A stretch of DNA of 64,000 nucleotides from Verrucomicrobiia bacterium (GTDB lineage Bacteria > Verrucomicrobiota > Verrucomicrobiia > Verrucomicrobiales > Akkermansiaceae). The DNA lies in NCBI GenBank assembly GCA_030432565.1, contig JAUIGV010000005.1, positions 124,001 to 188,000 of the forward strand, given 5' to 3'. Below, piece by piece: positions 24,574-42,100 of this stretch. A model generated the notes under the pieces. That model searched no databases. It was not told where the DNA came from and saw only the letters and a list, made by a program, of their open reading frames with translations. A program made the translations under genes and the position numbers. Each line of letters begins with the position of its first letter. Positions within the stretch are counted from its first letter, which is position 1.

Positions 24574-24611
24574 TACGGGCTTCCAGCCTGTGTCTCTTGA
24601 AATCACTTCCC

Positions 24612-24644
24612 AAAACCGAAGCCTCACCGGGCTTCGGTTTTTTC
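24612..24644 (+). terminator. Rho-independent terminator of argG
   Basis: AAAACCGAAGCC (24612-24623) pairs perfectly with GGCTTCGGTTTT (24630-24641) around a six-base loop, followed by further T. Twelve base pairs. The A-rich 5' flank makes it bidirectional, serving the convergent DUF1501 gene that ends at 24658. Confidence 0.9.
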
Positions 24645-24657
24645 TTTGCAGTATTCT

Positions 24658-26067
24658 TCAACCCAAAATCTCCCCGGCAGCGCTTTCACCTTCATTCAGA
24701 TCCACCCTCTCCGGCCTTCCCTTGTGCTGGTAGATCACCTTGTTGTGATCAAGCCCCAGCAAATCGAGCACTGTCGCATGAAGATCGTGAACATGCAGCT
24801 TGTCCTCGGTCGCATACAAGCCCAGGTCATCCGTCGCCCCGATCGTCTGGCCACCTTTCACCCCGCCACCCGCCATCCACATCGTGAACCCGGTCGGATT
24901 GTGATCACGACCATCGCCCTTTTCACTCATCGGGGTCCGGCCAAATTCCCCTCCCCAAATCACCAGTGTTTCATCGAGCAACCCCCGCTGTTTTAAATCC
25001 TGAATCAAGCCCACAATCGGTTGATCAACGTTCCCGCAAAGCCGGGCATGGTTTTTTTCCATCCCGCTGTGGCTGTCCCACTTGCTCCCCGCACCATGAT
25101 ACAACTGCACAAATCGCACCCCGCGCTCCACCAACCGCCGCGCCATCAGGCACTGACGTCCAAACACCCTGGTCTGCTCGTTTTCAAGCCCATACATTCT
25201 TTTGACGGCAGCCTGTTCACTTTCCAGATCTATCGCCTCCGGCGCTTCCGCTTGCATCCGATACGCCAGCTCGTAGCTCCGAATCCTCGCTTCAAGCTCG
25301 GTGTTCGATTGCCTGCCCATCAGGTGTTCCTCGTTCAGCCGATTGAGAAAAGACAACTTCCCCCGCTGCCGCTTCTCCGTCACCCCCTCGGGCAAATTCA
25401 AGTTTGCCACCGGCTCGTGACCCGATTCAAAAAGCGTCCCTTGATAACTCGCCGGCATAAAGCCCGACCCCCAGCAGCGGGAACCGTTCACGACCATCGC
25501 ATTACTGTCCTTGATCACCGTAAACGCCGGCAAATTATCACTCACTGATCCCAACCCGTAGTTCACCCACGCCCCCAAGGAAGGTCGTCCCCCAAACACC
25601 GAACCCGTATTCATCTGGGAAACCCCACCCGCATGATTAATCCCGTCTGAGACACACGATCTAATCACACACAAATCATCCGCAATGCTCGAATGCCGGG
25701 GCAACCAGTCGGATATCCAAAGCCCACTCTCTCCGTGCTGCTTCCATTCCCGCTTTGATTCAAGCAAAGGCGAACCCGCTTCTCCCATCGCTGTTACCGG
25801 CCGCTCAAAACTCTCCGGCAGGGGGCTCCCCGCCAACTTGTTTAACAAAGGCTTGGGATCAAAAAGATCAAGATGGCTCGGCCCTCCCTCCATAAAGAGA
25901 AAGATCACACTCTTTGCTTTCCCCAAATGATGCGGGATCTTCTCTGCTACGGGATTCCTCGTCCTTAATTCACTTCCATAAAGCCTCTCTCCCGTTAGCG
26001 CCGACAAAACAACGCCGCCAAACCCGGCTCCCGAGTTCATCAGAAATTGCCGGCGCGAGTGCGGCAT
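24658..26067 (-). CDS. DUF1501 family protein, Tat-exported
   Basis: 469 residues from the ATG at 26067 (MPHSRRQFLMNSG); an ATG at 26088 in frame would add seven residues. A twin-arginine signal is followed by an alkaline-phosphatase/sulfatase-like fold: VIFLFMEGGPSHLDLFDPKP, GGEFGRTPM and DHNP with conserved Asp and His likely to bind metal. DUF1501 proteins are a hallmark of planctomycetes and verrucomicrobia and nearly always accompany DUF1549/DUF1553 proteins, as here, where the partner gene ends 28 bases upstream. Biochemical role unproven; periplasmic hydrolase of glycan substituents is a common guess. Confidence 0.9.
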   Translation of the reverse strand: MPHSRRQFLMNSGAGFGGVVLSALTGERLYGSELRTRNPVAEKIPHHLGKAKSVIFLFMEGGPSHLDLFDPKPLLNKLAGSPLPESFERPVTAMGEAGSPLLESKREWKQHGESGLWISDWLPRHSSIADDLCVIRSCVSDGINHAGGVSQMNTGSVFGGRPSLGAWVNYGLGSVSDNLPAFTVIKDSNAMVVNGSRCWGSGFMPASYQGTLFESGHEPVANLNLPEGVTEKRQRGKLSFLNRLNEEHLMGRQSNTELEARIRSYELAYRMQAEAPEAIDLESEQAAVKRMYGLENEQTRVFGRQCLMARRLVERGVRFVQLYHGAGSKWDSHSGMEKNHARLCGNVDQPIVGLIQDLKQRGLLDETLVIWGGEFGRTPMSEKGDGRDHNPTGFTMWMAGGGVKGGQTIGATDDLGLYATEDKLHVHDLHATVLDLLGLDHNKVIYQHKGRPERVDLNEGESAAGEILG

Positions 26068-26095
26068 TATGATTCGACGACAAGACATGACTCAA

Positions 26096-28945
26096 TCAGT
26101 GAAGGTACAGGAACTCGTTGGAGCTTAGTAATGCGTGACAGAAATCTTCAAAAGCCTCTCTTTCCGGAGAGCTCGCTGCAGAGAACTTTTCGTGACCACC
26201 CCACTTGGCGCCCGAAGGAAGCCCGGCAAGGTCGACGACGTTCAGATCAATGACAGGATCTGGAAATTCCGGCAAGTCCCGCTCGTGCAGTAATTTTCGT
26301 GTCAGTCTCAACCTCGCCACTTCTCCTCGCCACAAATGCCCGCCGCCACTACGCGCGCCCAAGAAAACCTTTCCACTCTTCCGCTGAATGCCCCCCACGA
26401 CCTTGTGCCCCACCTCGACCCGCTGCATTTCCCCGTCCGACCTCGACAAATCCTTCAAATAAAAGGTCACCCTGCCCTGCCCTTCGCCTCGCGCATTGAC
26501 AACCACCGCCACGAAAACCGGAACCTTCAACGGAACCCTGAGATTCGAAGCCACGACCTCATACTCAAGGTCACCACCCGGATTTAATCCCACTAATTGC
26601 ACAATTAAATTCCTTGGTCCGTAGCGGCTCTTTTCGCTCGTCACCCCGATGGACCAGCCCTGGCTTTGATGGTTGCCATTCCATTGTGACAACAATGTGT
26701 TCACACGCGCATCATCGTGAACTTCGTCGAGCCGGACCACCGCGGAAGCCGAAAATTGATCTTCCGGGAGTTGAACTCCGGGCAATTCCAAATACTCCCA
26801 CTTGCTTCCGGGCTTTAGGGAAAAAGCCCCCCTGGCACCTCTGGCCAGATAGGACTCCGCACCCTTGAAAAAACTCTTCAAAGCAACCAATCCCTTCTGA
26901 TCCGAAGCGCCCCCGGCCCGCTGATCCTTTTCGGTGTTCTTGCTTTGCGAGGACAAGAATTCCATCGCAGCTTTCACCTCCTTCTCTTTTGCCTCACGCC
27001 CCCAAACCATTCGATAAGCCTCCCTCACATCCCCGCCTTCCGCGCTTCCCTTCGCTCCCAGAATCCGGCCAGCCAAGGCCCGGGCCCTGGCCAAAGGCCA
27101 CTCGCTGTTGGCCAATAGCAAGGACTGTGTCGGAGTCGTCGTATTCAACCGCTCCGGCTCGGAAGCAAATCCCGCCGGGCTGTCAAAACACTGCAAAACT
27201 CGCTCCGGAGTGTTTCGCATCTTCCTTAAATAAATGGACCGCACCGGCGAAGAACCACCTTGGGCCACCCCTCCTTCCAAATGCTTCAATTCGCCAGACA
27301 AAGCCAGCATGGCATCCCTGATCTGTTCCGCGCCGAGTCTCCGCGGCGGAAATCTCCAGAGCAACTTATTCCCCGGATCCGTTTGAACCTGAGCATTGCT
27401 GGGCTCAAATCTTGCCGTCTGACGGTAAGCCGCACTTGTCATGATCAACTTGTGCATCCGTTTTACCTTCCACCCGCCACTCATAAACTCACCAGCCAGC
27501 CAGTCCAACAACTCCGGATGAGTCGGCTCCTCTCCCAGCATGCCAAAATCATTCGGAGAGGCCGCAATCCCGCGCCCAAAATGATGCTGCCAGATCCGAT
27601 TCACCATCACTCGTGCCGTAAACGGATTCTCACTCGCCACAATCCAATCCGCCAAAGCCGAACGACGCCCGGTGGTTGTCTCCCGCCTCTCAATTGCCGG
27701 AGCGGCCTCCCCCAGCAATGTTAAAAATCCCGGCATCACTTCTTCCGAGTTCAGTTGAACAACCGCAGCCTCGCTTCCCGTATCCGTGCTCATGAAGGAC
27801 TTCGGCAGTGGCTCGGGCTTGAGCCGGTCAAAAGCACTCAGTTGCGTCTCCAGTTCTTCATAGCGCAAACGCCCGGGACTGCCCTTCTTTAAAACCTGCT
27901 CCGGCTTGGCCCGCGTCTCCACCTCCCGAATCGCCTGACGTTCCACCAGAAAAGAAATCTGGCGCTCATACGAACTCTGCTTCTCCCGCGGCTTGGCAAA
28001 CATCTCCTGCACCTCCGGCGGAAACGTCTTCACGTGAGAATTGTATTTTGCTCTCTGCCCGGCCTCAACCAACAAGGCCATCTCCGCCCTGATCTCCGCC
28101 GTCGCCTCTTCCCATGCCCGATACCGCTTCTGATACCCGGCAAGCTCTTCGGGAGTCGCGAAAGACCTGTCGTCCGGCCAATAGACCGACGATAGAAAGG
28201 CCTGCAGCGCGAAATAGTCCTTCTGCAAGATGGGATCAAACTTGTGGTCATGGCACTGGGCACAGCCGATTCCCATTCCTAAAAACACCTCAGCCGTTAC
28301 GTCCGTGATCTCATTGATCATGATCTCCCGCTGCATCTCCGCGTTGCGCTGGTTCCACTCGTAAACCCCGTTGCGCAAAAAACCTGTCGCCACCACTCGC
28401 TCCGGATCACTCGCCGCAATTTCATCACCCGCCAACTGCTCCTTCACAAACTCGTCGTAAGGTTTGTCCTCGTTGAAGGCCCGAATGACATAATCCCGAT
28501 AACGAAACGCCGCCGGACGAAAATCATCCGCCCGATAACCATCACTATCGGCATAGCGAACCACATCCAGCCAATGCTGCCCCCATCGTTCTCCATACCT
28601 TGGGCTCGCCAAAAGTTCATCAATCAGCTCATTCACGGCCACATCACGATCCTTTTCCCACGCCGTTAAAAACTCTTCCACTTGCCCGACCGCCGGAGGC
28701 AAACCGTGCAAATCAAAGTAGGCCCGCCTCACGAATTCCTCCGCTGAAGCCTCCTCCGACATCATCAATCCGGCCTGCCCCAACTTCCTTTCCACAAAAA
28801 AATCCACCGCATGCCCGACCTTCGGCACCACCACTTTCCTCACTGGCTGCACCACCCACCAGGCTTTTTCTTTTTCAGTGAACTCACGACCGCTTCCCAC
28901 CATCACGGTGAAAAATCCCAGAAGAAATCGGAGTAGGCAATTCAC
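26096..28945 (-). CDS. DUF1549/DUF1553 (PSD1-type) protein with inserted LamG-like domain
   Basis: 949 residues from a GTG at 28945, chosen because it gives a signal peptide (NCLLRFLLGFFTVMVG); upstream in-frame ATGs lie inside the divergent NHL gene. DUF1549 spans roughly residues 45-260 and has a heme-type CAQCH motif at about 228-232. DUF1553 follows (YRQTARF, GKLLWRFPPRRLGAEQIRDAML). Before the canonical DUF1553 ending LLSSNEFLYLH lies an extra region of about 190 residues with concanavalin-like strands (FSASAVVRLDE, SIGVTSEKSRYG, KVFLGARSGGG). This insertion is not part of the usual family. Partner of the adjacent DUF1501 gene. Confidence 0.88.
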   Translation of the reverse strand: MNCLLRFLLGFFTVMVGSGREFTEKEKAWWVVQPVRKVVVPKVGHAVDFFVERKLGQAGLMMSEEASAEEFVRRAYFDLHGLPPAVGQVEEFLTAWEKDRDVAVNELIDELLASPRYGERWGQHWLDVVRYADSDGYRADDFRPAAFRYRDYVIRAFNEDKPYDEFVKEQLAGDEIAASDPERVVATGFLRNGVYEWNQRNAEMQREIMINEITDVTAEVFLGMGIGCAQCHDHKFDPILQKDYFALQAFLSSVYWPDDRSFATPEELAGYQKRYRAWEEATAEIRAEMALLVEAGQRAKYNSHVKTFPPEVQEMFAKPREKQSSYERQISFLVERQAIREVETRAKPEQVLKKGSPGRLRYEELETQLSAFDRLKPEPLPKSFMSTDTGSEAAVVQLNSEEVMPGFLTLLGEAAPAIERRETTTGRRSALADWIVASENPFTARVMVNRIWQHHFGRGIAASPNDFGMLGEEPTHPELLDWLAGEFMSGGWKVKRMHKLIMTSAAYRQTARFEPSNAQVQTDPGNKLLWRFPPRRLGAEQIRDAMLALSGELKHLEGGVAQGGSSPVRSIYLRKMRNTPERVLQCFDSPAGFASEPERLNTTTPTQSLLLANSEWPLARARALAGRILGAKGSAEGGDVREAYRMVWGREAKEKEVKAAMEFLSSQSKNTEKDQRAGGASDQKGLVALKSFFKGAESYLARGARGAFSLKPGSKWEYLELPGVQLPEDQFSASAVVRLDEVHDDARVNTLLSQWNGNHQSQGWSIGVTSEKSRYGPRNLIVQLVGLNPGGDLEYEVVASNLRVPLKVPVFVAVVVNARGEGQGRVTFYLKDLSRSDGEMQRVEVGHKVVGGIQRKSGKVFLGARSGGGHLWRGEVARLRLTRKLLHERDLPEFPDPVIDLNVVDLAGLPSGAKWGGHEKFSAASSPEREAFEDFCHALLSSNEFLYLH

Positions 28946-29021
28946 AGGCTTTAAACAACACCACAGACGGATGTCGGTGGAAGATAAAAACGAAATCGCC
29001 CACTGGAATCTCTCAACCACA

Positions 29022-30014
29022 ATGAAAACATTTCTCGTCAGCCTCACGATTACCCTTCTCACCCTCATCGCAGAATCGGCCCCGCAAATCGTCACCGGCA
29101 TCATCCAACCCTTCTCCATCGTCTTCGACCAACAAGGTACCATCTACGGCGTGGAATATGAAAATGGCAACCGTATCTTCCGTCTCAAAGACGACCAACT
29201 CTCCTTCATTGCCGGCTCCAAAACCCCGGGCGGCAAAAAACTCGGCGACGTTGCCGCAGGCGATGGCGGCAACGCCGGAAAAGCCCGCTTCAATGGCATG
29301 CATGATCTCGCGCTTCACCCCGATGGCCGACTTTTCATCGCCGACACCTTCAATCAACGCATTCGTGTCCTCGACCTCAAAACAAACACCATCTCCACCC
29401 TGGGTGATCAACACCTGAAATTTCAATCTCCCTACACTGTCGACCTCCACCCCGATGGAAAGCACCTACTCGTTGCTGATCTCGAGAAACGCCAGGTTCT
29501 CGAAATCAACCTCAAAACCCTCACCGCCAAACCCCGCGCCGGAAACGGAAAAAAAGGCAAGCCTATCGAAGACTCACCCGCCACTAAATCACCCCTCCTC
29601 GCTCCCCGGGCCGCGATCTACGGAAAGGACGGATCCATCTTCCTCGCCTCCCGCGAAGGCCATGCCATTCGCCAGGTCACCCCCGAAGGCACCCTAAAAA
29701 CCATTGTCAATCTTGCTGGCAAGAAAGGCTCTGCCGGCGACGATGGCCCCGCCATCAAAGCCCGCCTCAACGGCCCAAAGCATCTGGCACTCGATCCTGA
29801 AGGCAACCTCGTCATCAGCGATGACAACAACCACATCCTGCGCCTCTACAAACATGAAAGCAAAACTCTCCACCTCCTTTACGGAACCCCGGGCAAAAAG
29901 GGTAACGCTGCCACTGAACTAAACCGCCCCCATGGAGCCCGCTACGCTCCCGACGGATCGCTCTGGATTGCTGACTCTTTCAACAACCGACTCGTCAGGG
30001 TTCTCCAGCCTTAA
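29022..30014 (+). CDS. Secreted NHL-repeat beta-propeller protein
   Basis: 330 residues from the ATG at 29022 (MKTFLVSLTITLL), which begins a clean signal peptide; the frame is open further upstream but without reason to use it. NHL-type blades are easy to see: LALHPDGRLFIADTFNQRIRVLD, TVDLHPDGKHLLVADLEKRQVLE, LALDPEGNLVISDDNNHILRLY and ARYAPDGSLWIADSFNNRLVRV. It forms a six-bladed propeller, probably extracellular or periplasmic, for protein or glycan binding, or as a lactonase-like enzyme. Divergent from the PSD1 gene; 76 bases separate the starts. Confidence 0.85.
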   Translation: MKTFLVSLTITLLTLIAESAPQIVTGIIQPFSIVFDQQGTIYGVEYENGNRIFRLKDDQLSFIAGSKTPGGKKLGDVAAGDGGNAGKARFNGMHDLALHPDGRLFIADTFNQRIRVLDLKTNTISTLGDQHLKFQSPYTVDLHPDGKHLLVADLEKRQVLEINLKTLTAKPRAGNGKKGKPIEDSPATKSPLLAPRAAIYGKDGSIFLASREGHAIRQVTPEGTLKTIVNLAGKKGSAGDDGPAIKARLNGPKHLALDPEGNLVISDDNNHILRLYKHESKTLHLLYGTPGKKGNAATELNRPHGARYAPDGSLWIADSFNNRLVRVLQP

Positions 30015-30191
30015 CTAAAAGGTTATTCAGGCCGGAAAAAACAGCGGAGCCCAAAGACGGCAACACCGAGAAGCGTGAAGGAGAGGATCAAGAGAGTGAT
30101 CCTTCAACCCGGCCAGTTAATTGGGATCCTTCTCATCCTGGGTCTCACCAAGACAGAAGGAACCTTTTTTTTCTTTCAATGCGATGGCGGT

Positions 30192-30220
30192 TTGACACCT
30201 TGAGAGGTGCCGGAAAACTT
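30192..30220 (+). promoter_or_regulatory. Possible promoter in the 30015-30233 intergenic region
   Basis: A consensus -35 TTGACA (30192-30197) lies 42 bases before the ATG at 30234. The -10 at 17-base spacing (AAACTT, 30215-30220) is poor. The rest of 30015-30233 shows a small hairpin, GGATCA-AGAGAG-TGATCC, near 30085-30102 and no gene. Confidence 0.3.
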
Positions 30221-30233
30221 TTTCAATCAACAA

Positions 30234-30941
30234 ATGAACTTCAAACTCGCAATCATCCCCGTAATTTTCCTGCCAGCAGGAATTCAAGCAGCCACCATCA
30301 CCTTCGCCGGAGTTGTCAATGACGACAGCGGCTCCGAGATTTCGGAGTGGAAAACCGCATCAACTGTCAAATCCCTCGATGGCGACGGCGACAATGTCTA
30401 CGGCACCCTCGCCCATCTCTTCTACCGCATCGAATTCAAGGGGCAAAACACCCTCTACACCTTTAATAGCTCCGATAGACAGGTGGGGCCTTTTGCGGGA
30501 TATGCCGTCGTAGACCACCCCGACGGGGTCTCTCCCGACACCCAGGTTCGCACCACCACCAATGATGCAGCCGGCCTGGCGGATGACGTCATGTTCACCT
30601 TCACCGCTCTGGCGGGCTCCCCCGGGGACGTGCGGATCGGGATCGCCACCGACGGATTGAACGGGAATCAGTTTTCACCCGCTTCCATCGGACTTCGACA
30701 AGTCGCCGGATCGTCAGCCGAGCACACCCTGACCTCGGTGAACAGCACTCTCGACATGGTCTTTTTCGACGTCACCGGAGTTTTGGCGGGAGATCAGTTC
30801 GAAGTCTTCGGCGATTCGGGCTCCGGAAACTTCGCGACTCACCAAATCGTCACCTGGGACACCCTGACCATCCCGGAACCGGGGAGCTGCCTACTCCTCT
30901 CGCTTTCCTTCCTCCTGATTTCCATCAAAAGGAGGCGCTAG
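30234..30941 (+). CDS. PEP-CTERM sorted secreted protein (duplicate N-domain)
   Basis: 235 residues from the ATG at 30234. A signal peptide covers about residues 1-19. The body is a beta-rich domain of about 185 residues with several Asp/Asn-rich turns (DGDGDN). The end is a textbook PEP-CTERM signal: IPEPGS, a hydrophobic stretch, then KRRR, recognised and cut by an exosortase that is not in this window. The domain is almost identical, also at DNA level, to residues 25-210 of the next protein, which carries a quite different tail. The function of the shared domain is unknown. Confidence 0.8.
   Translation: MNFKLAIIPVIFLPAGIQAATITFAGVVNDDSGSEISEWKTASTVKSLDGDGDNVYGTLAHLFYRIEFKGQNTLYTFNSSDRQVGPFAGYAVVDHPDGVSPDTQVRTTTNDAAGLADDVMFTFTALAGSPGDVRIGIATDGLNGNQFSPASIGLRQVAGSSAEHTLTSVNSTLDMVFFDVTGVLAGDQFEVFGDSGSGNFATHQIVTWDTLTIPEPGSCLLLSLSFLLISIKRRR
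30312..30862 (+). repeat. Tandem duplication, copy 1 (about 550 bases)
   Basis: Matches 31074-31624 at a constant offset of 762 bases without indels. I count about 20 differences by eye, most of them silent. It covers the domain shared by the PEP-CTERM gene and the following gene but neither signal peptide nor tail, so the similarity starts and stops abruptly inside both genes. Confidence 0.9.
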
Positions 30942-30998
30942 TCACCGCGCGCTATTTTCCACTTCATCCTCTTTGGAACAAATTAAACTAACGGAATC

Positions 30999-33113
30999 AT
31001 GAAACTAAAAATCATCGGCTCCCTGCTCGCTTTGCCAATGGCAGCCCAATCGGCGCAGGTTAGCTTCTCCGGGGTTGTCAATGACGACAGCGGCTCCGAG
31101 ATTTCGGAGTGGAAAACCGCATCAACTGTCAAATCCCTCGATGGCGACGGCGACAATATCTACGGGACCCTCGCCCATCTCTTCTACCGCATCGAATTCA
31201 AGGGGCAAAACACCCTCTACACCTTTAATAGCTCCGATAGACAAGTGGGGCCTTTTGGGGGATATGCCGTCGTGGACCACCCCGACGGAGTCTCTCCCGA
31301 CACCCAGGTTCGCACCACTACCAATGATGCAGCCGGCCTGGCGGATGACGTCATGTTCACCTTCACCGCTCTGGAGGGTTCCCCCGGGAACGTGCGGATC
31401 GGGATCGCCACCGACGGATTGAACGGGGCTCAGTTTTCACCCGCTTCCATCGGACTTCGACAAGTCGCCGGATCGTCAGCCGAGCACACCCTGACCTCGG
31501 TGAACAACACTCTCGACATGGTCTTTTTCGACGTCACCGGAGTTTTGGCGGGAGATCAATTCGAAGTCTTTGGCGATTCGGGCTCGGGAAACTTCGCGAC
31601 TCACCAAATCGTAACCTGGGACATTCTCGTCACTTCAGACCTCACCGACCCGACAGATAGTGATAACGACACCATGGGCGACAACTGGGAAACCTTCTAC
31701 TTCGGCGACCTCACCACCAGTGACGGCACCGGTGATAACGACACTGACGGCGCCACCGATTTGCAGGAATGGAATGCCTCATCCAATCCGAACCAACCTG
31801 ACACCGATGGCGACGGGCTCACTGACGGTGATGAAATCAATACCCGAAATACTGACCCCACCTCCAACGATTCCGACTCCGATGGCCTTCCGGACGGTTA
31901 TGAAGTTGCCAACAACTTCGATCCCAATCTCGACACCGGTGATGATGGAGCAAGTGGCGATCCGGATATGGACACTCTGGACAACATCACCGAATTTGGT
32001 TTGGGAACAAATCCCAACGAGGAGGACACCGATGACGACGGCTACAATGATGCTGTCGAAAATCTAAGCGGCGTCTGGTTCGATGCCTCCGCAACAGGCT
32101 CCGATCCACTCAACCCTGACACCGATGGAGACGGGCTCGTGGACGGTGTGGAAAATCCCGACCTTGCCTTTGATGCCGGAAACCCCACGACCCAACCCGG
32201 GACAGATCCCAATCTCCGGGACAGTGACAGCGACGGAGTCAGCGATCGCCTTGAAATCGAAAACGGCACCGATCCTACCAATTCTGCAAGCACCCCTGGT
32301 CCGTCACCTAATGTTCTGAGTGCAGACTTTCAAGGAATCCCCGGAGGAGCATTCACCAATGAGCCCGTTCTCATGGAAGGTGGCAGCCCGCAGTCTGAAT
32401 ACCTTTCCGGAATCTGGAACGCACTTGATGTCACGGGCCACGATGGCACCGACATCGATCCATCCTGGACCGACCTGGTAAACGCCCTGGGCAACCCGAC
32501 CTCCGTCAGTGTCAACATCACCGGGGTTGTTTCTGCTTGGACCAATCCCCAAAACGAAAGACCAATTTTTGACGACTACCTCTTCGTCAATGCTGGCAAT
32601 GCCGATCCAAATATCGCCTGGAACATTGCAGGGCTTCGTCCCGCAAGCACTTACAGATTCTTCCCCTATGGTGGCGTGGCACGGGACCACACGATGACCG
32701 TTGACACCAACGGGGACGGCGATCTTAGCGACGAAACACCCACGCGGGTTCCACCAACAGGCGGTGTCGAATTTGCCGTCACTTCCGACGCCAGCGGTCA
32801 AATTATCGGAACCATCACTCCCGGCAACTCGGGCGAAGCAAATTGGGGCGGATTTGAACTGGTGGGAAATCTGCCAGGGGCTTCCGGCGCAGAATTGAAT
32901 ATCGAGGCGATCACCTACGATGGTGAAGACGTGACTCTCACCTGGACCAGTATCCCGGGTGCAACTTACAACATCGAGGCCAGCAGTAATCTGAGCGACT
33001 GGTCTCCCATCTCCATTGGTATCAACGCCGCTGCCGGCCCGGCCACCACCACCAGCCAGATTGTTGACACCACGTTTGACGCTGCGAAGTTTTACCGGGT
33101 TGTTGAACAGTAG
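30999..33113 (+). CDS. Secreted modular protein: duplicate domain, TSP3 calcium repeats, C-terminal beta domain
   Basis: 704 residues. Signal peptide about 1-19, then the domain duplicated from the preceding gene (about 25-210). Residues about 219-436 are thrombospondin type 3 repeats (TDSDNDTMGD, PDTDGDGLTDGDE, NDSDSDGLPDGYE, PDTDGDGLVDGVE, RDSDSDGVSDRLE), which bind calcium and form a stiff rod. Next comes a module with DYLFVNAGN and TVDTNGDGDLSDETP that recurs in the 33183 protein, and finally a C-terminal domain ending in YNIEASSNLSDW and FYRVVEQ. No PEP-CTERM tail is present. Likely a surface or matrix protein. Confidence 0.85.
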   Translation: MKLKIIGSLLALPMAAQSAQVSFSGVVNDDSGSEISEWKTASTVKSLDGDGDNIYGTLAHLFYRIEFKGQNTLYTFNSSDRQVGPFGGYAVVDHPDGVSPDTQVRTTTNDAAGLADDVMFTFTALEGSPGNVRIGIATDGLNGAQFSPASIGLRQVAGSSAEHTLTSVNNTLDMVFFDVTGVLAGDQFEVFGDSGSGNFATHQIVTWDILVTSDLTDPTDSDNDTMGDNWETFYFGDLTTSDGTGDNDTDGATDLQEWNASSNPNQPDTDGDGLTDGDEINTRNTDPTSNDSDSDGLPDGYEVANNFDPNLDTGDDGASGDPDMDTLDNITEFGLGTNPNEEDTDDDGYNDAVENLSGVWFDASATGSDPLNPDTDGDGLVDGVENPDLAFDAGNPTTQPGTDPNLRDSDSDGVSDRLEIENGTDPTNSASTPGPSPNVLSADFQGIPGGAFTNEPVLMEGGSPQSEYLSGIWNALDVTGHDGTDIDPSWTDLVNALGNPTSVSVNITGVVSAWTNPQNERPIFDDYLFVNAGNADPNIAWNIAGLRPASTYRFFPYGGVARDHTMTVDTNGDGDLSDETPTRVPPTGGVEFAVTSDASGQIIGTITPGNSGEANWGGFELVGNLPGASGAELNIEAITYDGEDVTLTWTSIPGATYNIEASSNLSDWSPISIGINAAAGPATTTSQIVDTTFDAAKFYRVVEQ
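31074..31624 (+). repeat. Tandem duplication, copy 2 (about 550 bases)
   Basis: Partner of 30312-30862 (offset 762). The left edge falls just after the signal peptide region and the right edge at TWD, a few codons before the TSP3 repeats begin. Confidence 0.9.
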
Positions 33114-33133
33114 AGTCCTGCCATTGAGTCTTT

Positions 33134-33167
33134 AAGGGGAACGGTCTCCGGACCGTATCCCCTTTTT
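33134..33167 (+). terminator. Rho-independent terminator after the TSP3 protein gene
   Basis: AAGGGGA (33134-33140) pairs with TCCCCTT (33158-33164), and inside it CGGTC pairs with GACCG around a TCCG loop; a T run follows. The GTC-TCCG-GAC core is identical to that of the clpP terminator, a stable UNCG-type loop. It ends 16 bases before the next ATG. Confidence 0.85.
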
Positions 33168-33182
33168 CACACCCTCATCCCT

Positions 33183-36100
33183 ATGAAAAAAGCCATCCTC
33201 GCTACCCTCTTTGTCACTCAAATTCTGAGTGCACAAGACAGCGTTGTCGTATTCAACGAGATCCACTACCACCCGGCGGGAAACAATTCCTCGCTCGAGT
33301 TCATCGAACTCTACAACCAGCTCGCCATCGACACTGATATCTCAAATTGGCGACTCGATGGTGACGTCCAATTTGACTTTCCCGAAGGAACCACCATCCC
33401 CGCCCAAAGCTACCTCGTCATTGCTCGGGACCCCGCAGCACTTCAAGCCGCTACCGGATTTTCCGGAGCCCTCGGACCTTACGAAAACTTCCTCTCCAAC
33501 TCGGGCAACACCCTTCGCCTCTACAACAACAACCGTTCGTTCATCGTCTCCAACTCGGCACCGCCCGCCTTTCGCGCGGAGACTCTTTGGAATGTCGACA
33601 TTCAGGGAAATGGCAATGGAGGATTTGCGGGCCAACTCTCCCCGCCCGGCAATATGTCAGGCACTATTAACGGACTTGGCGGCACCTGGAATCACTTCAC
33701 AGTCGGCGGTCATTCCACCACAAGCAGCAATCCCTCGCTCAACCTCGTCGAGAGCGATGGCTCCGCATCCCAGGTCACCTTCACCATCAACGGCACCGTC
33801 AGCGGATGGAGCCAAAGCGGCGACGCCCTCTTTTCCGACTACCTCTTCGTGAACGCCGGTAATTCCGACAGGAATCTCGATTGGCAAATCACCGGGCTCG
33901 ACTCCGGCAAAACCTATACCCTCATCGCCTATGGGGGCGTCGGCCGTGATGCGACCATTACCGTCGATACTGACGGAGATGGTAGTCTCACAGACGAAAC
34001 TCCCGTCATCGCTCCGGCAAACGCAGGCGTCGCCATCGAGAGCATCACTCCCTTCCCCGGAGCTAATCCCCTCATTCTCGGAAGAGTTGAATCCGGGAGT
34101 GTCAGCGAGGGAAACTGGAGTGGTTTCCAACTCTTCATTCCCTCCGAAGGTGACGGCGGTGGCGGTGGGACGACCACTGGAGGAGTCCCCACCAACTCCC
34201 TCGACAAGCGCCGCATCATGGACGAATTAAGTTATTCCGATACCTCACCCTGGCCCATCGCACCCGATGGCTCGGGCTTCACTCTCTCCAAAATCAACCC
34301 CGCATCCGGAACCCGGGAAGCAACCAACTGGAGCATCAGCAACTCCCCCCACGGTTCACCCGGTTCCCCCAACACCACCGCTTCTTCCTCGTCTCTCCTC
34401 TTCAACGAAGTCGCCGGGGAACTCAATACCACTTTTCAAGTTGAAATCATCAACTCCACCTCCTCTCCAATCGATTTCACCGGTTTTATCATCACCTCTT
34501 CGGACCCGCTTCATTCCGACTACGTTCTCCCTGCAGGCGTTCTCGGCCCGGGAAAATTCCTGACCATTGAAGCAGCTACTCTTGGCTTTACTCCAGGCGA
34601 CAACGATCGCCTCTTCTTTTACTCACCCGAAAAAAACAACATCCTCGACGCCGTCCGCATTGACGACCGTCCACAGGCCCGCTTTCCCGATGCCACTGGC
34701 GAATGGATGCGCCCCGACTCTCCCACCTTCGGGTCGGAAAATCTCATCACGCTCGAAGACAGACTCGTAATCAACGAAATCTTCTACCACGCCTATCCCG
34801 ACCGGGGCACCCCCGGCTCTCCCGCACCCACCACCACAACAACTGTTCTCAATTTCGATTCAGTTTGGAGATATAACCTCGACGCCGGACCCACCGGCCT
34901 TCCCTCAAACTGGGCGACCACCGAGCACCCCGCAGACAACACAAGCTGGGCCCAGGGCCCCGGACTTCTTGGCCGGGAAAATACGATCCTAGGCGAACCA
35001 ATCGGCACCGAAATCACGCTCTCTTCCAAGATCACTTACTATTTTGAGACCGAGTTCACTTACTCCGGCGATGGCCCCGTCAGCAAGATGATCCTCAATC
35101 ACTACATCGACGATGGTGCCGTCGTCTTTCTCAACGGCATCGAGATCGACCGTATCGGCATGCCCGTCGGCATAATCACCCCCACCACTGCAGCCTCCCC
35201 CGGAGTTGGCAATGCCGCTCCCGCCACCCTCACCATCAACAATCCCAACGTGCTCGCCGGAAGCAACCGCCTCTCTGTCGAAGTCCATCAGGCCAACACC
35301 AACAGCAGCGATCTTGTCATGGGGCTGGAAGTGATACTGGAAGCACCAGCCGGAGGTGGCGGGAACCCAGCCTCAACCTACACGGAACGCGACGAAGAAT
35401 GGATCGAACTCTATAATCGATCAGAAACCCCCATCGACCTCACCGGATGGAAAATCGGGGGCGGCATTAGCTTCAGTTTCCCTTCCACCTCGATTGCACC
35501 CGGCTCGTATCTCGTCATTGCAAAAGACGCCACCGCTCTATCAGAAAAGCATTCCACCGCCACCATCATCGGAGACTACTCCGGCCAACTCGCCAACGGC
35601 GGTGAAACCATCCGCCTCATCGATGCCAATGGAAACCCTGCCGACGAAGTCCGCTATTACGATTCCGGCAAGTGGCATTCAAAGGCCGATGGAAACGGCT
35701 CAAGCCTAGAACTCCGCGATCCCAAAACCGACAATAACGCCGCCGGTTCATGGGCTCCCTCCATCGAATCCGGCGAGTGGCAATCCTTCACCTACACCGG
35801 CACCGCCATCAACGATGGTATTGGCAATAATGTCTACCACGAGTTTCTCATCGCTCTCCTCGACTCCGGGGAATTCCTCCTCGACGACGTCAGTGTCATC
35901 GAAAGCGGCAGTATCGAATTTATCCAAAACGGAGATTTTGAATCCGACACTCCCGGCCGCCCTGCGGACAAATGGCGGGCCGTCGGCACTCATGGCAGTC
36001 ACAGCCGGACAGTCGTCGTCACAGATCCCGATGACCCGGGCAACCAATGCCTCCACGTTGTCGCCACCGGACCCACCGAGGACAAGCACAACAAACTCGA

Positions 36101-38798
36101 AACAACCTTCGCCAACTCCGAACGCGTCGTCATCGGTCGTGAATATACCATTTCATTCCGTGCCAAATGGCTCTCCGGCTCGAACCAGGTCAATTCCCGC
36201 CTTTACTTTAACTACCTGCAAAAGACCCAGCTTCTCGACGTCCCCGAAAGCTGGGGAACTCCCGGGTCAGCAAACTCGACGGCCCTCTCAAACGCCGGCC
36301 CCGCGCTCAGCGGCCTCTCCCACTCACCCGCCGTTCCCAATGCCGGACAGGCTGTCACAGTTTCCATCGATGCCACCGACCCGGATGGCATCAGCGACCT
36401 TGCTCTCTTCTACTCCGTCAACGGCGGGAGCTTCAACAGCGTGCCGATGACCCTTGCATCAAATGACTCGTTCCAAGGAAGCATTCCCGGACAAAGCGCA
36501 AGCCGCATCATCCGCTTCTATGTTCGCGGACGCGATGCCTCTTCCAATGACTCCTTCTTCCCTGTCGACGCTGATGAAGGTGGAGCCTTCTATAAGGTTC
36601 AAGATGGACTCGCCGACAACTCCGGACTCCGCCACAACTTCCGCATTATCATGTCGGACAGCGATCGTTCGTTTCTGTTTCTAAATACCAACCGCATGAG
36701 TAACGATCGCTTCCCGGCCACCGTCATTGAGGATGAGGAAAAGGTCTATTACAATGTCGGGCTCCGCCTTAAGGCCAGTGGCTTCGGTCGTTTCAACAGC
36801 GGACACTATGGATTCAATATTCGCTTTCAACCCGACAATCTCTTTCGGGGAATTCATCAAAGCATTTCCATTGAGCGCAGCCCCAATCTCAAGGAACTTC
36901 TGGCAAAAAATCTCATGAACCGCGCAGGCGGCGGCTACTGGTCATTCTACGATGACGTCGCTCACATCATCACGCCAACCACCGGAGACCGCGGCATTGG
37001 CCTCCTCTCCATGAGCCGACAAACCTCCACCTTTTTCGATGGCTTGTTTCCTGACGCAGATCACCCCGGCACCCTCTTTAACCACGAGCTTCTCTACAAC
37101 CCCAACGGCACCACCGGCGGTGCGGAAGGGCTGAAAATAGGCAATCCCTATAACCACACCGGTGGCCGCTATGATCTCGAAGACCGTGGCTCAGATAAGG
37201 AGCCCTACCGCTGGGGCTTTCAGATCCGCTCTTCCCGGGGTCGTGACGACTACTCCCAGCTCGTCGCTCTCAACCAGGCCATGGACCTCAGCGGCACCTC
37301 GCTAAAAGCAGCCCTCGATGAGCTCATCGATGTCGATCAATGGATGCGGACCTTCGCCATGATGTCACTCAACGGAACAGACGATATTTACAGCCGGATT
37401 TGGGAACATAACTTCCGCTACTATGTTCGCCCCACCGACAACAAGATCATCATCTTCCAGTGGGACCTTGACCGTTCATTCCAACTTGGAACCACCTCGT
37501 CCGTCATTCCCAGCCGAAATAGTGTCGTTAAACTTTTTAGCATCCCGCAGTATCGCCGACTTTTCGACGGACATCTCAACGACCTCACCGTCACAACCTT
37601 TAATTCCACTTACGCCACTCCCCTCGCCTCCCACCTCACGACTCTGACTGGCGACAATCTCAACGGAATCCCCGGCTATATTAGCGGACGGGCCGGCCAT
37701 GCCGCAAACTCCCTGCCTTCCCAGGTTCCCTTCACCATCACGACCAATAACGGCAACGACTTCTCCGAAGCAGACAGCGCCGTCGATCTCGCTGGCACGG
37801 GGTGGATCGACATTGCCTCAATCCGGATCAACGATATTCCCACTGAAATCACCTGGGCCGATTCTGATTCCTGGCAGGTCACAATTCCAATCGGGGTGGG
37901 AGCAAACCTTCTCGAACTCAAAGCTTACAACCGTCAGGGACTTGAAGTCGGAAGCGACAGCATCACGGTGACCAACACCAGCGCCATCGACCTCGCCAGC
38001 TCAAGGAACACCATCATTAGCGAACTTCACTACAATCCCTCCGATCCAACTCCAGACGAAATCACAGCCGGCCATAATGACAGTGATCTCTTTGAGTTTC
38101 TCGAAATTCTCAACATCAGCGAGACCATCGAAGTTGACCTGAGCGGCGCAAGCTTCACCGACGGTGTGGCCTTCACCTTTCCGCAAGGGACTACGCTGGC
38201 ACCTGGCGAAAGACTCGTCATCGTTTCAAAACAGTCGGCGTTCGCATTCCGTTATGGTCAGGGCGTTGCAACCATCGCCGGAGAGTTTTCGGGCCAACTC
38301 AGAAACAGCGGCGAGCACATTCGCTTCGAAGCGAGCGACACCTCTGCGATCGCCGACTTCACTTATGAAGATGGCAACCCGTGGCCGGAAAGTGCCGATG
38401 GAGGCGGCTATAGTTTGGTCTTCTCCGGCGCTGATCCCAATTTACCTCTCGACTGGAGAACAAGCCTCACGGCCGGGGGCACTCCCGGAGACGATGATGG
38501 ACAGCCCTTCTTTGGGACCAGCGACGAGATCATTGCTTACGCCATCGCTTCAACGCCGCAAGGTTCAATCAGCGCAGATCGCTTTTCGTTCACGTTTCTT
38601 CAGAATTTGAATGCCGATGATGCCATCATCGTAGCCGAATACTCCACTGATCTGGAAAATTGGATTCCGCTTTCATCCGACCACCTTCGATCACGAATTA
38701 ATCAAGGAAACGGGACTTCTTTGATCACTTACACCACCCCTTTCATGGCTTCGGTCCACCCGGCACAGTTTGCCCGCCTCAGGGTGATCAGTCGATAG
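33183..38798 (+). CDS. Giant secreted protein with lamin-tail domains and a CotH kinase-like domain
   Basis: 1871 residues. Signal peptide about 1-17. Lamin-tail (LTD) domains near 20-115, 395-500, 525-860 (interrupted) and 1605-1745 carry the NEIHYHP/NEIFYH/SELHYNP starts and EFIELYN or EWIELYN strands. A DYLFVNAGN module lies near 220-300 and a Gly-rich linker near 325. Carbohydrate-binding-like beta domains occupy about 860-1035. A CotH domain spans about 1145-1480, including FQWDLDRSF (Trp1427), which in CotH kinases holds a metal-binding Asp. The last 90 residues resemble other C-terminal beta domains here. Probably a surface protein; kinase activity is unproven. Confidence 0.85.
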   Translation: MKKAILATLFVTQILSAQDSVVVFNEIHYHPAGNNSSLEFIELYNQLAIDTDISNWRLDGDVQFDFPEGTTIPAQSYLVIARDPAALQAATGFSGALGPYENFLSNSGNTLRLYNNNRSFIVSNSAPPAFRAETLWNVDIQGNGNGGFAGQLSPPGNMSGTINGLGGTWNHFTVGGHSTTSSNPSLNLVESDGSASQVTFTINGTVSGWSQSGDALFSDYLFVNAGNSDRNLDWQITGLDSGKTYTLIAYGGVGRDATITVDTDGDGSLTDETPVIAPANAGVAIESITPFPGANPLILGRVESGSVSEGNWSGFQLFIPSEGDGGGGGTTTGGVPTNSLDKRRIMDELSYSDTSPWPIAPDGSGFTLSKINPASGTREATNWSISNSPHGSPGSPNTTASSSSLLFNEVAGELNTTFQVEIINSTSSPIDFTGFIITSSDPLHSDYVLPAGVLGPGKFLTIEAATLGFTPGDNDRLFFYSPEKNNILDAVRIDDRPQARFPDATGEWMRPDSPTFGSENLITLEDRLVINEIFYHAYPDRGTPGSPAPTTTTTVLNFDSVWRYNLDAGPTGLPSNWATTEHPADNTSWAQGPGLLGRENTILGEPIGTEITLSSKITYYFETEFTYSGDGPVSKMILNHYIDDGAVVFLNGIEIDRIGMPVGIITPTTAASPGVGNAAPATLTINNPNVLAGSNRLSVEVHQANTNSSDLVMGLEVILEAPAGGGGNPASTYTERDEEWIELYNRSETPIDLTGWKIGGGISFSFPSTSIAPGSYLVIAKDATALSEKHSTATIIGDYSGQLANGGETIRLIDANGNPADEVRYYDSGKWHSKADGNGSSLELRDPKTDNNAAGSWAPSIESGEWQSFTYTGTAINDGIGNNVYHEFLIALLDSGEFLLDDVSVIESGSIEFIQNGDFESDTPGRPADKWRAVGTHGSHSRTVVVTDPDDPGNQCLHVVATGPTEDKHNKLETTFANSERVVIGREYTISFRAKWLSGSNQVNSRLYFNYLQKTQLLDVPESWGTPGSANSTALSNAGPALSGLSHSPAVPNAGQAVTVSIDATDPDGISDLALFYSVNGGSFNSVPMTLASNDSFQGSIPGQSASRIIRFYVRGRDASSNDSFFPVDADEGGAFYKVQDGLADNSGLRHNFRIIMSDSDRSFLFLNTNRMSNDRFPATVIEDEEKVYYNVGLRLKASGFGRFNSGHYGFNIRFQPDNLFRGIHQSISIERSPNLKELLAKNLMNRAGGGYWSFYDDVAHIITPTTGDRGIGLLSMSRQTSTFFDGLFPDADHPGTLFNHELLYNPNGTTGGAEGLKIGNPYNHTGGRYDLEDRGSDKEPYRWGFQIRSSRGRDDYSQLVALNQAMDLSGTSLKAALDELIDVDQWMRTFAMMSLNGTDDIYSRIWEHNFRYYVRPTDNKIIIFQWDLDRSFQLGTTSSVIPSRNSVVKLFSIPQYRRLFDGHLNDLTVTTFNSTYATPLASHLTTLTGDNLNGIPGYISGRAGHAANSLPSQVPFTITTNNGNDFSEADSAVDLAGTGWIDIASIRINDIPTEITWADSDSWQVTIPIGVGANLLELKAYNRQGLEVGSDSITVTNTSAIDLASSRNTIISELHYNPSDPTPDEITAGHNDSDLFEFLEILNISETIEVDLSGASFTDGVAFTFPQGTTLAPGERLVIVSKQSAFAFRYGQGVATIAGEFSGQLRNSGEHIRFEASDTSAIADFTYEDGNPWPESADGGGYSLVFSGADPNLPLDWRTSLTAGGTPGDDDGQPFFGTSDEIIAYAIASTPQGSISADRFSFTFLQNLNADDAIIVAEYSTDLENWIPLSSDHLRSRINQGNGTSLITYTTPFMASVHPAQFARLRVISR

Positions 38799-39130
38799 AT
38801 CACTCCCAGACGATATCGCAATCGAATCGTTCAAGCAGCTAACATTCCTGCGCTTCCCCTGCTGAGGGTGGTTGCTGGCATAACCTTGGCCGCCTTTAGC
38901 TTTTGAATAGTCCGGGCCCCGCTACCGAAGCCCCGCCGACCGGAAAAATTCAGCGCAGACCGCCCGCCCCATGATACTTGATGCAAAACGCGTCCGCTAA
39001 AAAAGCAACCCCACCCCGACTCCGGAACTTTGGATAGGGCCGGGATCGGGAATCGCAGGCCGATTCCTTGCATGCAAAACTCAAGAAAACGACAGGACAG
39101 ACCCGAATCTGCCGTTATACTGGCCAAGAT
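38799..39130 (+). other. 332-base intergenic region with a probable -10 box
   Basis: No gene that I can support; an antisense open frame here has unconvincing composition. A good -10 TATACT lies at 39116-39121, ten bases before the RND gene ATG, with only a weak -35 (CAGGAC, 39093-39098). The transcript would have almost no leader. No terminator hairpin is obvious after the giant gene. Confidence 0.35.
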
Positions 39131-42100
39131 ATGATCCGCTGGTTTGCCAAGAATGACATTGCCTCCAATCTTCTGATGTTGGCAATCGTCCTCGCCGGGC
39201 TATACACCGCCTTCAATAAAATCCCGCTTGAAGTTCAACCCAGCTATGACATCGGGGAAGTTGAAATCAACATGCGCTTCCGGGGCGCGAGCCCGCAGGA
39301 CGTTCAGGAACATATCGTCAAGCCGATTGAGCGGGCTCTTCGAGACCTTCCCGGGGTCAAATTGATCGATTCCAAAGCAAGGAGCGGGTCTGCAAATATC
39401 GATGTGGAGGCGGAGGATGGAGTGGACCTTCGGGAGCTGCGCGACGAAGTCGAAGCCCGCGTCGGCGCGATCAACACATTTCCCGGAGAGACCGAGCGAC
39501 CCGAAATTCATATTCCCAACATGTCGAATTACAGGGAGGTTCTCACCATTGCGATCACCGGGGAACTCAGCGAAAACGACCTCTACAAAACAGCCCGACG
39601 AGTCGAAAACGAGCTTCTTGATCTGCCCGAAATTTCCCGGACCGACATGCGCGGCACCCAACCACTCGAAATCAGTATCGAGGCCGACGATCAAAAACTG
39701 CGCGACTACGGCCTCTCCTTTGAGGATCTCGTCAACGCCATCCGCAGGTCCTCCCTGGCCCTCTCCGCCGGCTCGCTCCGGACTCCGGTGGGTTCCATCA
39801 TGATCCGCACCGATGGTCAGGCCTACACCCAGGAAGACTTCGCCAACATCGTGGTCACGGCCCAGGATGGTGCCCAGATCCGGGTGGGCGATCTTGCCTA
39901 CATCAAGGATGGTTTTGAGGACGCCCAAATGATGACCCGTTTCAACGGAGAGCCTGCCATCATGATCGACATTCTGAGAGCGGCCGATGAAAACGCGATC
40001 GAGATCTCCGACGCAGTTCAACGATATATTGAGAACACCTCTCCACTTTTGCCAAACGGCGTCAGCCTCTCCGCTTGGGATGACGAATCAATCCGCATTC
40101 GTGGCCGGCTTTCAACTCTCGGGAATTCCCTGATCATGGGTGCCGGCCTTGTCCTCCTCGTCCTCGGACTTTTCCTTCGACCCATGCTTGCTTTCTGGGT
40201 GGTCCTTGGCATTCCGATTAGCTTCGCAGGCGGTGTTCTCCTGATGCCCTACTTTGGCATGACCGCCAATACGATGAGCATCTTCGCCTTCATCATCGTC
40301 CTCGGAATCGTCGTGGACGACGCCATCGTGACCGGGGAAAACATCTACACGAAACTCAGGGAAAACCTCACGCCGCTCGACGCCGCCGTCATTGGAACGA
40401 AGGAGGTTGCAACCCCGGTCACCTTCGGTGCCATAACCACCATCGTAGCCTTTATCCCTCTTTCCTACTTCCCGGGCTTCTGGTCGGCCTGGACCAGTCA
40501 AATCCCCCCCATTGTCGCCTCGGTCCTGGTCTTCTCGCTCATCGAGTCAAAACTCATTCTTCCCTCGCACCTCAAGCACCTCAGCACAAATCGCCGGAAA
40601 ATGGGCGGCTTTGCCCGGTTCCAAAAATGGGTGGCAGATTCCTTGGAGCGAGCCATCGAGAAATTCTACCGCCCGGTTCTAGCTCTTGCCTCGAAATACC
40701 GCTACACCACGATCGCTCTTTTCTTTGCCCTCGCCATGGCCGGATTCGGCTACCACAAAAGCGGGGAAATCGGATTTGTCGATATGCCCAAAGTCGAGCG
40801 TTATCGAATTTCTGCCTACCTCAGCATGATCGACAACACCCCGTTTGAGGAGACCGACAGGCAGATCTCTCACATCGCGGCTTGCGCTGAGGAAATGAAA
40901 AGAGAATTGATTGATCCGGGCACCGGAGAATCCCTCGTTCGCAACATCATGACCAGCACCGGAGCCTCGCGCTGGGGTGGCGCGGGTGATCCCGAGCAAG
41001 GATTTGCGTCCCTTGAAATCATGCCTCCGAGCGAGCGAAGTGAACCTGGCCCAACCAACGCTGAAATTGCAAAGATGTGGGAGGAAAAGATTGGTGAGAT
41101 TGAAAACGTTCGTTACCTCAGAGTCTCCGGCGAATGGGGCAGCCGGAGCCGTGGTCAGGAGGAACTCAACAGCCTGAGTGTGGAACTCCGGGGGGAAGAC
41201 AGTGAAGAAAAGCGGGCAATCGCCGAAGAAATCGAACTCTTGTTTGAAGCGCAAGAGGGCATCCAGGGAGCTCATGCCGACAACCAACGCCAGCGCGAGG
41301 AGTTCGCAATCACCCTGAAGCCAAGGGCACTTGAGTTGGGAATCACACAGAGAGCGCTCGCCCAGCAAATCCGTCAGGCATTTTATGGAGAGGAAGCCCA
41401 GCGCCTCCAGCGTGATGGCGAGGAAATCCGTGTCATGGTTCGACTCCCCAAGGAAAAACGGGAATCAATGTTCACTTTTGAGAATCTCACCATCCAGGCG
41501 CCAAATGGATCGATCATCCCCTTCTCAACCGTGGCGACCGCCAGCCTCCAAGAGGCGCCGGGAACCATCGAAAGCCTCAACGGCGCGCAGGTTTCCTACA
41601 TCAATGCGCAACCGAAAAACCAGGAAGTCAAAATTATGGAAATGGCCGAAAGGCTCAGCCCCCAAATTTCCGAAATCGTCGCCAAAAGCTCGGATCTCAG
41701 TTGGATTTGGGCCGGCTACATCAAAGAGCAAAGGGAGACCAGCAGCCGATACACTTGGCTTTATGGACTCTTGATTCTGACCCTCTACGGACTTCTCGCG
41801 ATTCCTTTCAAATCCCTCCTCCAGCCCTTTATCGTTCTTCTCGCAGTGCCTTTCGGAGTGATTGGAGCCTACGCCGGTCACATCCTGCTCGACATTACCC
41901 CGTCCTACCTCTCGGTCTTCGGCATCATGGCCCTGACCGGAGTTGTCGTGAATGATTCACTGGTTCTTGTCGACTTTATCAACCAAAAGAGACGCGAGGG
42001 CATGGACCTTCACGAAGCTGTTCGGATCTCCGGCGTGCGACGTTTCCGCCCCATCTTCCTTACTTCAATCACCACCTTTGCAGGCCTCATGCCTCTAATG

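Follow-up and report, generated by a model that had tools for sequence, protein, structure and literature searches.

Near-identical domains on neighbouring surface-protein genes with different tails in Akkermansiaceae: probable gene conversion within an exchanged cassette

Two adjacent genes in an Akkermansiaceae genome (Verrucomicrobiota) encode almost the same domain and then end in entirely different tails, which raises the question of how the two domains came to be so alike and what the likeness might be for. In the window, by which we mean the whole stretch of 64,000 nucleotides that was analysed, the best-scoring ungapped segment at an offset of 762 bases spans 560 nt and holds 19 differences (96.6% identity) and no indels. 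The original prediction, made from the letters of the DNA, had described a repeat of about 550 bases at this spacing with about 20 differences and wholly different flanks, and both descriptions hold. Beyond the ends of the repeat, identity drops immediately to 20–50%. The repeat starts directly after two unlike signal peptides (53% nucleotide identity at 30280–30309) and stops at two unlike tails. Because the signal peptides differ, what is repeated is the mature domain only and not the whole gene. We refer to this unnamed N-terminal mature domain, common to both genes, as domain X, and to the genes as A and B (Table 1). In the 5.9 Mb genome only these two copies of the repeat were found.

The tails are as different as had been proposed, one being a PEP-CTERM signal and the other a run of TSP3 repeats followed by a further C-terminal domain. 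The tail of A scores 17.2 bits against TIGR02595 (NCBIfam, cut-off 16) and 13.8 bits against PF07589 (Pfam), under the latter's cut-off of 20.7. Three PF09721 exosortase loci lie above cut-off in the same genome, and A is by these sequence matches a predicted PEP-CTERM exosortase substrate. B scores above the curated cut-off for bacterial TSP3 repeat proteins. The idea that the shared domain is given two destinations stands for A, as far as a sorting signal goes. A and B are likely co-transcribed, judging from the gap of 57 nt between them. B is followed by a terminator-like hairpin, which a consensus scanner did not flag as a terminator. Downstream lies gene C, which in the window is without domain X, whereas C of the type III branch described below has one. 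B and C of the window have a second module in common, with 32277–32861 (residues 427–621 of B) and 33549–34133 (residues 123–317 of C) being 40% identical; C of three relatives (G016, G068 and G060) is without a counterpart of those C residues.

Table 1. Positions of genes, domains and block ends in the window
Feature	Position	Strand	Details
Gene A	30234..30941	+	Signal peptide, domain X (type I) and PEP-CTERM tail; 235 aa
First repeat copy (domain X of A)	30302..30861	+	Ungapped alignment
PEP-CTERM sorting tail of A	30870..30938	+	TIGR02595 above cut-off; PF07589 below cut-off
Gene B	30999..33113	+	Signal peptide, domain X, TSP3 repeats and C-terminal domain; 704 aa
Second repeat copy (domain X of B)	31064..31623	+	Ungapped alignment
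TSP3 calcium-repeat region of B	31638..32303	+	PF18884 28.9 bits, cut-off 25; four repeats
C-terminal part of B	32304..33110	+	
Hairpin followed by a T run, terminator-like, between B and C	33134..33168	+	-22.8 kcal/mol, z -3.7
Gene C	33183..38798	+	Four lamin-tail (LTD) domains and CotH-like region, without domain X; 1871 aa
Left end of the block replaced relative to G016	30299	.	95% identity stops at the signal-peptide/domain-X boundary of A
Right end of the block replaced relative to G016	39076	.	95% identity resumes at the RND transporter gene

Searches with C and X in related genomes, most of them metagenome-assembled, recovered the same order of A (PEP-CTERM), B (TSP3) and C (LTD/CotH) at seven places, namely in G014, G016, G019 and G001, which belong to the genus of the window, in G068 and G060, both from a different genus, and at locus L126. 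A further cassette, in G005, is cut by the contig end, with the last residues of A still present. Every relative cassette that could be read whole has the A–B pair, with a domain identity between A and B that ranges from 50% to 92%. The pairing is therefore old, and only the sameness of the two domains is recent. Of the two origins first proposed for the repeat, recent duplication is accordingly set aside and gene conversion is retained, the direct evidence for it lying in the relatives.

Domain X itself comes in three types with about 15–30% identity between them: type I in the window, type II in G014, G068 and G060, and type III in G016, G019, G001, G005 and L126. A and B begin with the same type in all of these cassettes, as does C in G016, G019, G001, G005 and L126. 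A type-specific profile search found one X type per genome in 8/8 genomes checked, the weak type II match in the window genome being the type I pair itself. The profile comparison of X types took in the PEP-CTERM tails, and its probabilities are inflated by them. A type I profile freed of the tail finds type II but not type III, so that the evidence for the kinship of type III to the other types is weaker. The matching of types is not universal, since in genus g13 a large type-III-like X protein adjoins a type I PEP-CTERM X protein (L040, L041 and L043, in G171, G217 and G232). In an order-wide search, 23/70 X matches lay by hand count within about 6 kb of another, and the tandem X pairs that were measured are 38–84% identical. 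In G068, B has an additional copy of X in its interior, 80% identical to the N-terminal one (L036, G068:C140:8222-8827).

A comparison of the window with G014 sets the behaviour of X apart from that of the genes around it. The tail of B is 70% identical and C 80–81% identical between the two, and X is only about 24% identical, in A and in B alike. At the same time the X of the window shares 51–53% identity with a PEP-CTERM protein in G080, a member of another genus, around which no such cassette was found within the 10 kb of contig read. An X that is nearer to another genus than to its cassette sister is not expected from gradual divergence, and we conclude that X was replaced in both genes. 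As a pattern, A and B switched X type together.

The clearest evidence for how the two copies become alike comes from G060, where A and B hold 483 identical nucleotides within flanks of about 55% identity, a codon run reached by 0/5000 codon shuffles. In the same genome the paralogues are closer than the orthologues, A and B being 92% identical to each other but only 72% (A) and 68% (B) identical to their counterparts in G068. Shorter A–B tracts were seen in G001 (33 nt, 0/5000), G019 (74 nt, 59/5000) and L126 (47 nt, 92/5000). These weaker tracts are soft and should not be over-read, since long codon runs also appear in two comparisons between orthologues (A of G016 and G019, 6/5000; B of G060 and G068, 21/5000). 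The codon-shuffle test gave no conversion tract in any A–C or B–C pair to which it was applied. Paralogues were not closer than orthologues in G014, nor clearly so in G016, G001 and L126, and in the tree the G060 and window copies group by genome and the type III copies mostly by gene. In G014 the two domains are about 50% identical; the A–B pairs of G014, G068 and G016 stay at 50–68% without clear tracts, which indicates that homogenisation is occasional.

For the window pair, a check of synonymous divergence along the repeat had been suggested as a way of detecting conversion, and it gave a divided answer. In the core of the repeat, 10 changes are synonymous and 7 non-synonymous (dS 0.079, dN 0.017), and this dS is lower than that between the window genome (G000) and its sister species G016 in the backbone, 0.140 for the NHL gene and 0.169 for the RND gene, so that the copies of A and B became alike after that split. 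The 19 differences are evenly scattered and unclustered (385/5000 codon shuffles), and sharp-ended tracts inside the repeat, clear in G060 and weaker in G001, G019 and L126, are absent from the window pair. Conversion in the window is thus deduced from the dating, from the confinement of the repeat to the mature domain, and from the relatives. Taking the locus and its relatives together, we think it very probable that gene conversion keeps the X domains of A and B alike.

The rival that fares best is a history without repeated copying in the lineage, in which a type I A–B block arrived complete from elsewhere, or a single duplication carried X into B at the change of type. The even spread of the window differences is what a single event would leave, type I has its closest relative in another genus, and cassettes do move between species (see below). 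A single duplication could not, however, produce the partial tracts of the relatives, and if B already existed, complete with signal peptide and tail, a replacement confined to its mature domain was needed in any case, which is itself conversion-like. We regard this history as unlikely, though deserving of serious consideration. A recent tandem duplication of the whole gene with later change of the tails would fit the high identity, short distance and common strand of the copies, but their signal peptides, upstream sequences and tails are all unlike, and in the relatives both tails are present already and follow the same order; we reject it as very improbable. That the repeat is an assembly artefact is hardly credible given the scattered differences, the unique flanks and the same layout in independently assembled relatives.

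The exchange of cassettes can be followed in the interval between argG and the RND transporter gene (24574–39068 in the window). On either side of the cassette the window is 95% identical to G016 (27837–30308 and 39076–40637), and the cassette between is different. The left break lies three bases before the start of the repeat. In G016 the signal peptide of A survives as an orphan frame (42 codons), with a new A gene further down; a source was sought for the 370 nt between them and was not found. C of the two cassettes is only 62% identical, and C of G016 is 82–86% identical to that of G005 and G001; the RND gene of those two genomes has only 64% identity with that of the window. The G016 cassette therefore most likely came from outside, and we hold it as highly probable that the cassette was replaced in one member of the G000/G016 pair. 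A second recombinant, again at the edges of X (L114:7921-10538), joins a type II X to a type-III-like end of B, followed by a type III C from which X has been deleted in frame. The content of the argG–RND interval is variable between relatives: it holds DUF1501, DUF1553 and NHL genes with the cassette in the window, DUF1553 and NHL genes with the cassette in G016 up to the reach of the contig, and DUF1553/DUF1501-type genes in G026 and G003; in G014 DUF1501 alone was seen. Nothing was found between argG and the RND gene in G019, G012, G021 and G023. As the two genes adjoin in several relatives, the site is an insertion point.

Our preferred account, to which we give a probability of roughly 0.6, combines an old A–B pair, homogenisation of its X domains by conversion, and exchange of cassettes at the edges of X. 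A and B would be surface proteins with a common head (X) and different tails, an exosortase signal in the one and a TSP3 stalk with a C-terminal domain in the other. Conversion would copy one X over the other between adjacent segments lying in the same direction, the account being neutral as to which serves as donor. The edges of X would also serve as recombination points when A–B–C cassettes are exchanged between lineages, and through such an exchange both A and B of a genome would acquire a new X type at once.

As a rule, conversion between paralogous surface-protein genes is regarded as a source of diversity. The visible effect here is that one head is kept the same on differently anchored neighbours, while between close species it is the entire cassette that changes type. 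The nearest known case is that of babA, babB and babC in Helicobacter pylori, paralogous surface-protein genes that swap segments by intragenomic recombination and so form chimeric genes (PMC4552749). The likeness lies in the exchange of segments between surface-protein paralogues of one genome. The bab genes, however, lie at separate loci, their products are outer-membrane proteins of one kind, and their exchange alters expression and adhesion, whereas here the genes are neighbours, the tails differ and what is seen is matching heads. The PEP-CTERM/exosortase (EpsH) system is a second point of comparison, through the sorting tail of A and the three exosortase loci, and its module is known for rapid expansion within lineages (Haft et al. 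2006, PMC1569441). It differs as described in that the cargo domain is here common to, and homogenised against, a neighbour that lacks the tail. Our search of the literature on PEP-CTERM proteins together with gene conversion found no report. Gene conversion among surface-protein paralogues is thus already known, and it is the matched-head arrangement that we found undescribed.

What the head does is a separate question. Domain X has no family match in Pfam, NCBIfam, PHROGs or PDB sequences, and type III X gives only below-cut-off matches in NCBIfam, largely to PEP-CTERM tails. X is predicted to fold as a beta sandwich (type I model, pLDDT 62, pTM 0.72), and the fold models are weak throughout (pLDDT 62 and 56, Z at most 8.2). 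The type I model resembles CBM35 and CBM6 among other jelly rolls, all middling matches with Z under 8.3; that to CBM35 (Z 7.8, rmsd 3.4, 123 aligned) is no better than those to unrelated jelly rolls. Fold matches of type III are generic, and a second look did not favour CBMs. Architecture is the stronger clue to the role of X. As an accessory module it occurs on sulfatases (L037, L038 and L257), a GH43/GH32-type protein (L257), a BD-FAE esterase (L259) and LamG proteins (L034 and L007), and in G117 it is present both on a PEP-CTERM protein and on the sulfatase next to it, at 84% amino acid and 87% nucleotide identity between the two. Placement on sulfatases, glycosidases and esterases, along with the weak fold resemblance of type I, is what X has in common with carbohydrate-binding modules of the CBM6/CBM35 jelly-roll type. 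Taken with the weak jelly-roll model, this placement suggests glycan binding, and we give even odds to X being a putative jelly-roll glycan-binding module.

X could instead be a structural, self-assembling beta sandwich, such as a fibre or coat subunit, with A nucleating, at the cell, an assembly that B builds up. In Foldseek the type I model matches an archaeal bundling pilus subunit best (E 0.0012), and co-assembly would go well with copies that match; for a module found on sulfatases, a glycosidase and an esterase, however, glycan binding is the more natural role. The fold evidence does not decide between the two, and we consider the structural role improbable, with perhaps a minority share of the likelihood. 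If X does bind glycans, the cell-anchored A and the extended B would have one polysaccharide as their common target and would hold the cell to it.

That the matching of heads is itself under selection we put forward tentatively. Were it so, it would point to a shared ligand or to a head-to-head partnership, and would offer a way of testing the function of a Verrucomicrobiota domain that has no name and is also found on sulfatases and glycosidases. More speculative still, and in our judgement a long shot, is a matrix-compatibility locus, in which binding to the strain's own matrix would require X heads that match on anchored A and on extended B and C, conversion would restore the match after a switch, and exchange of the cassette would change matrix type in one step. 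The sharing of N-terminal domains between neighbours may extend beyond X: the B–C pair of L064 has a different N-terminal region in common (282 aa, 78% identical, LamG-like by eye), and the B–C pairs of L215 and L216 have another unnamed N-terminal domain in common at 33–35% identity.
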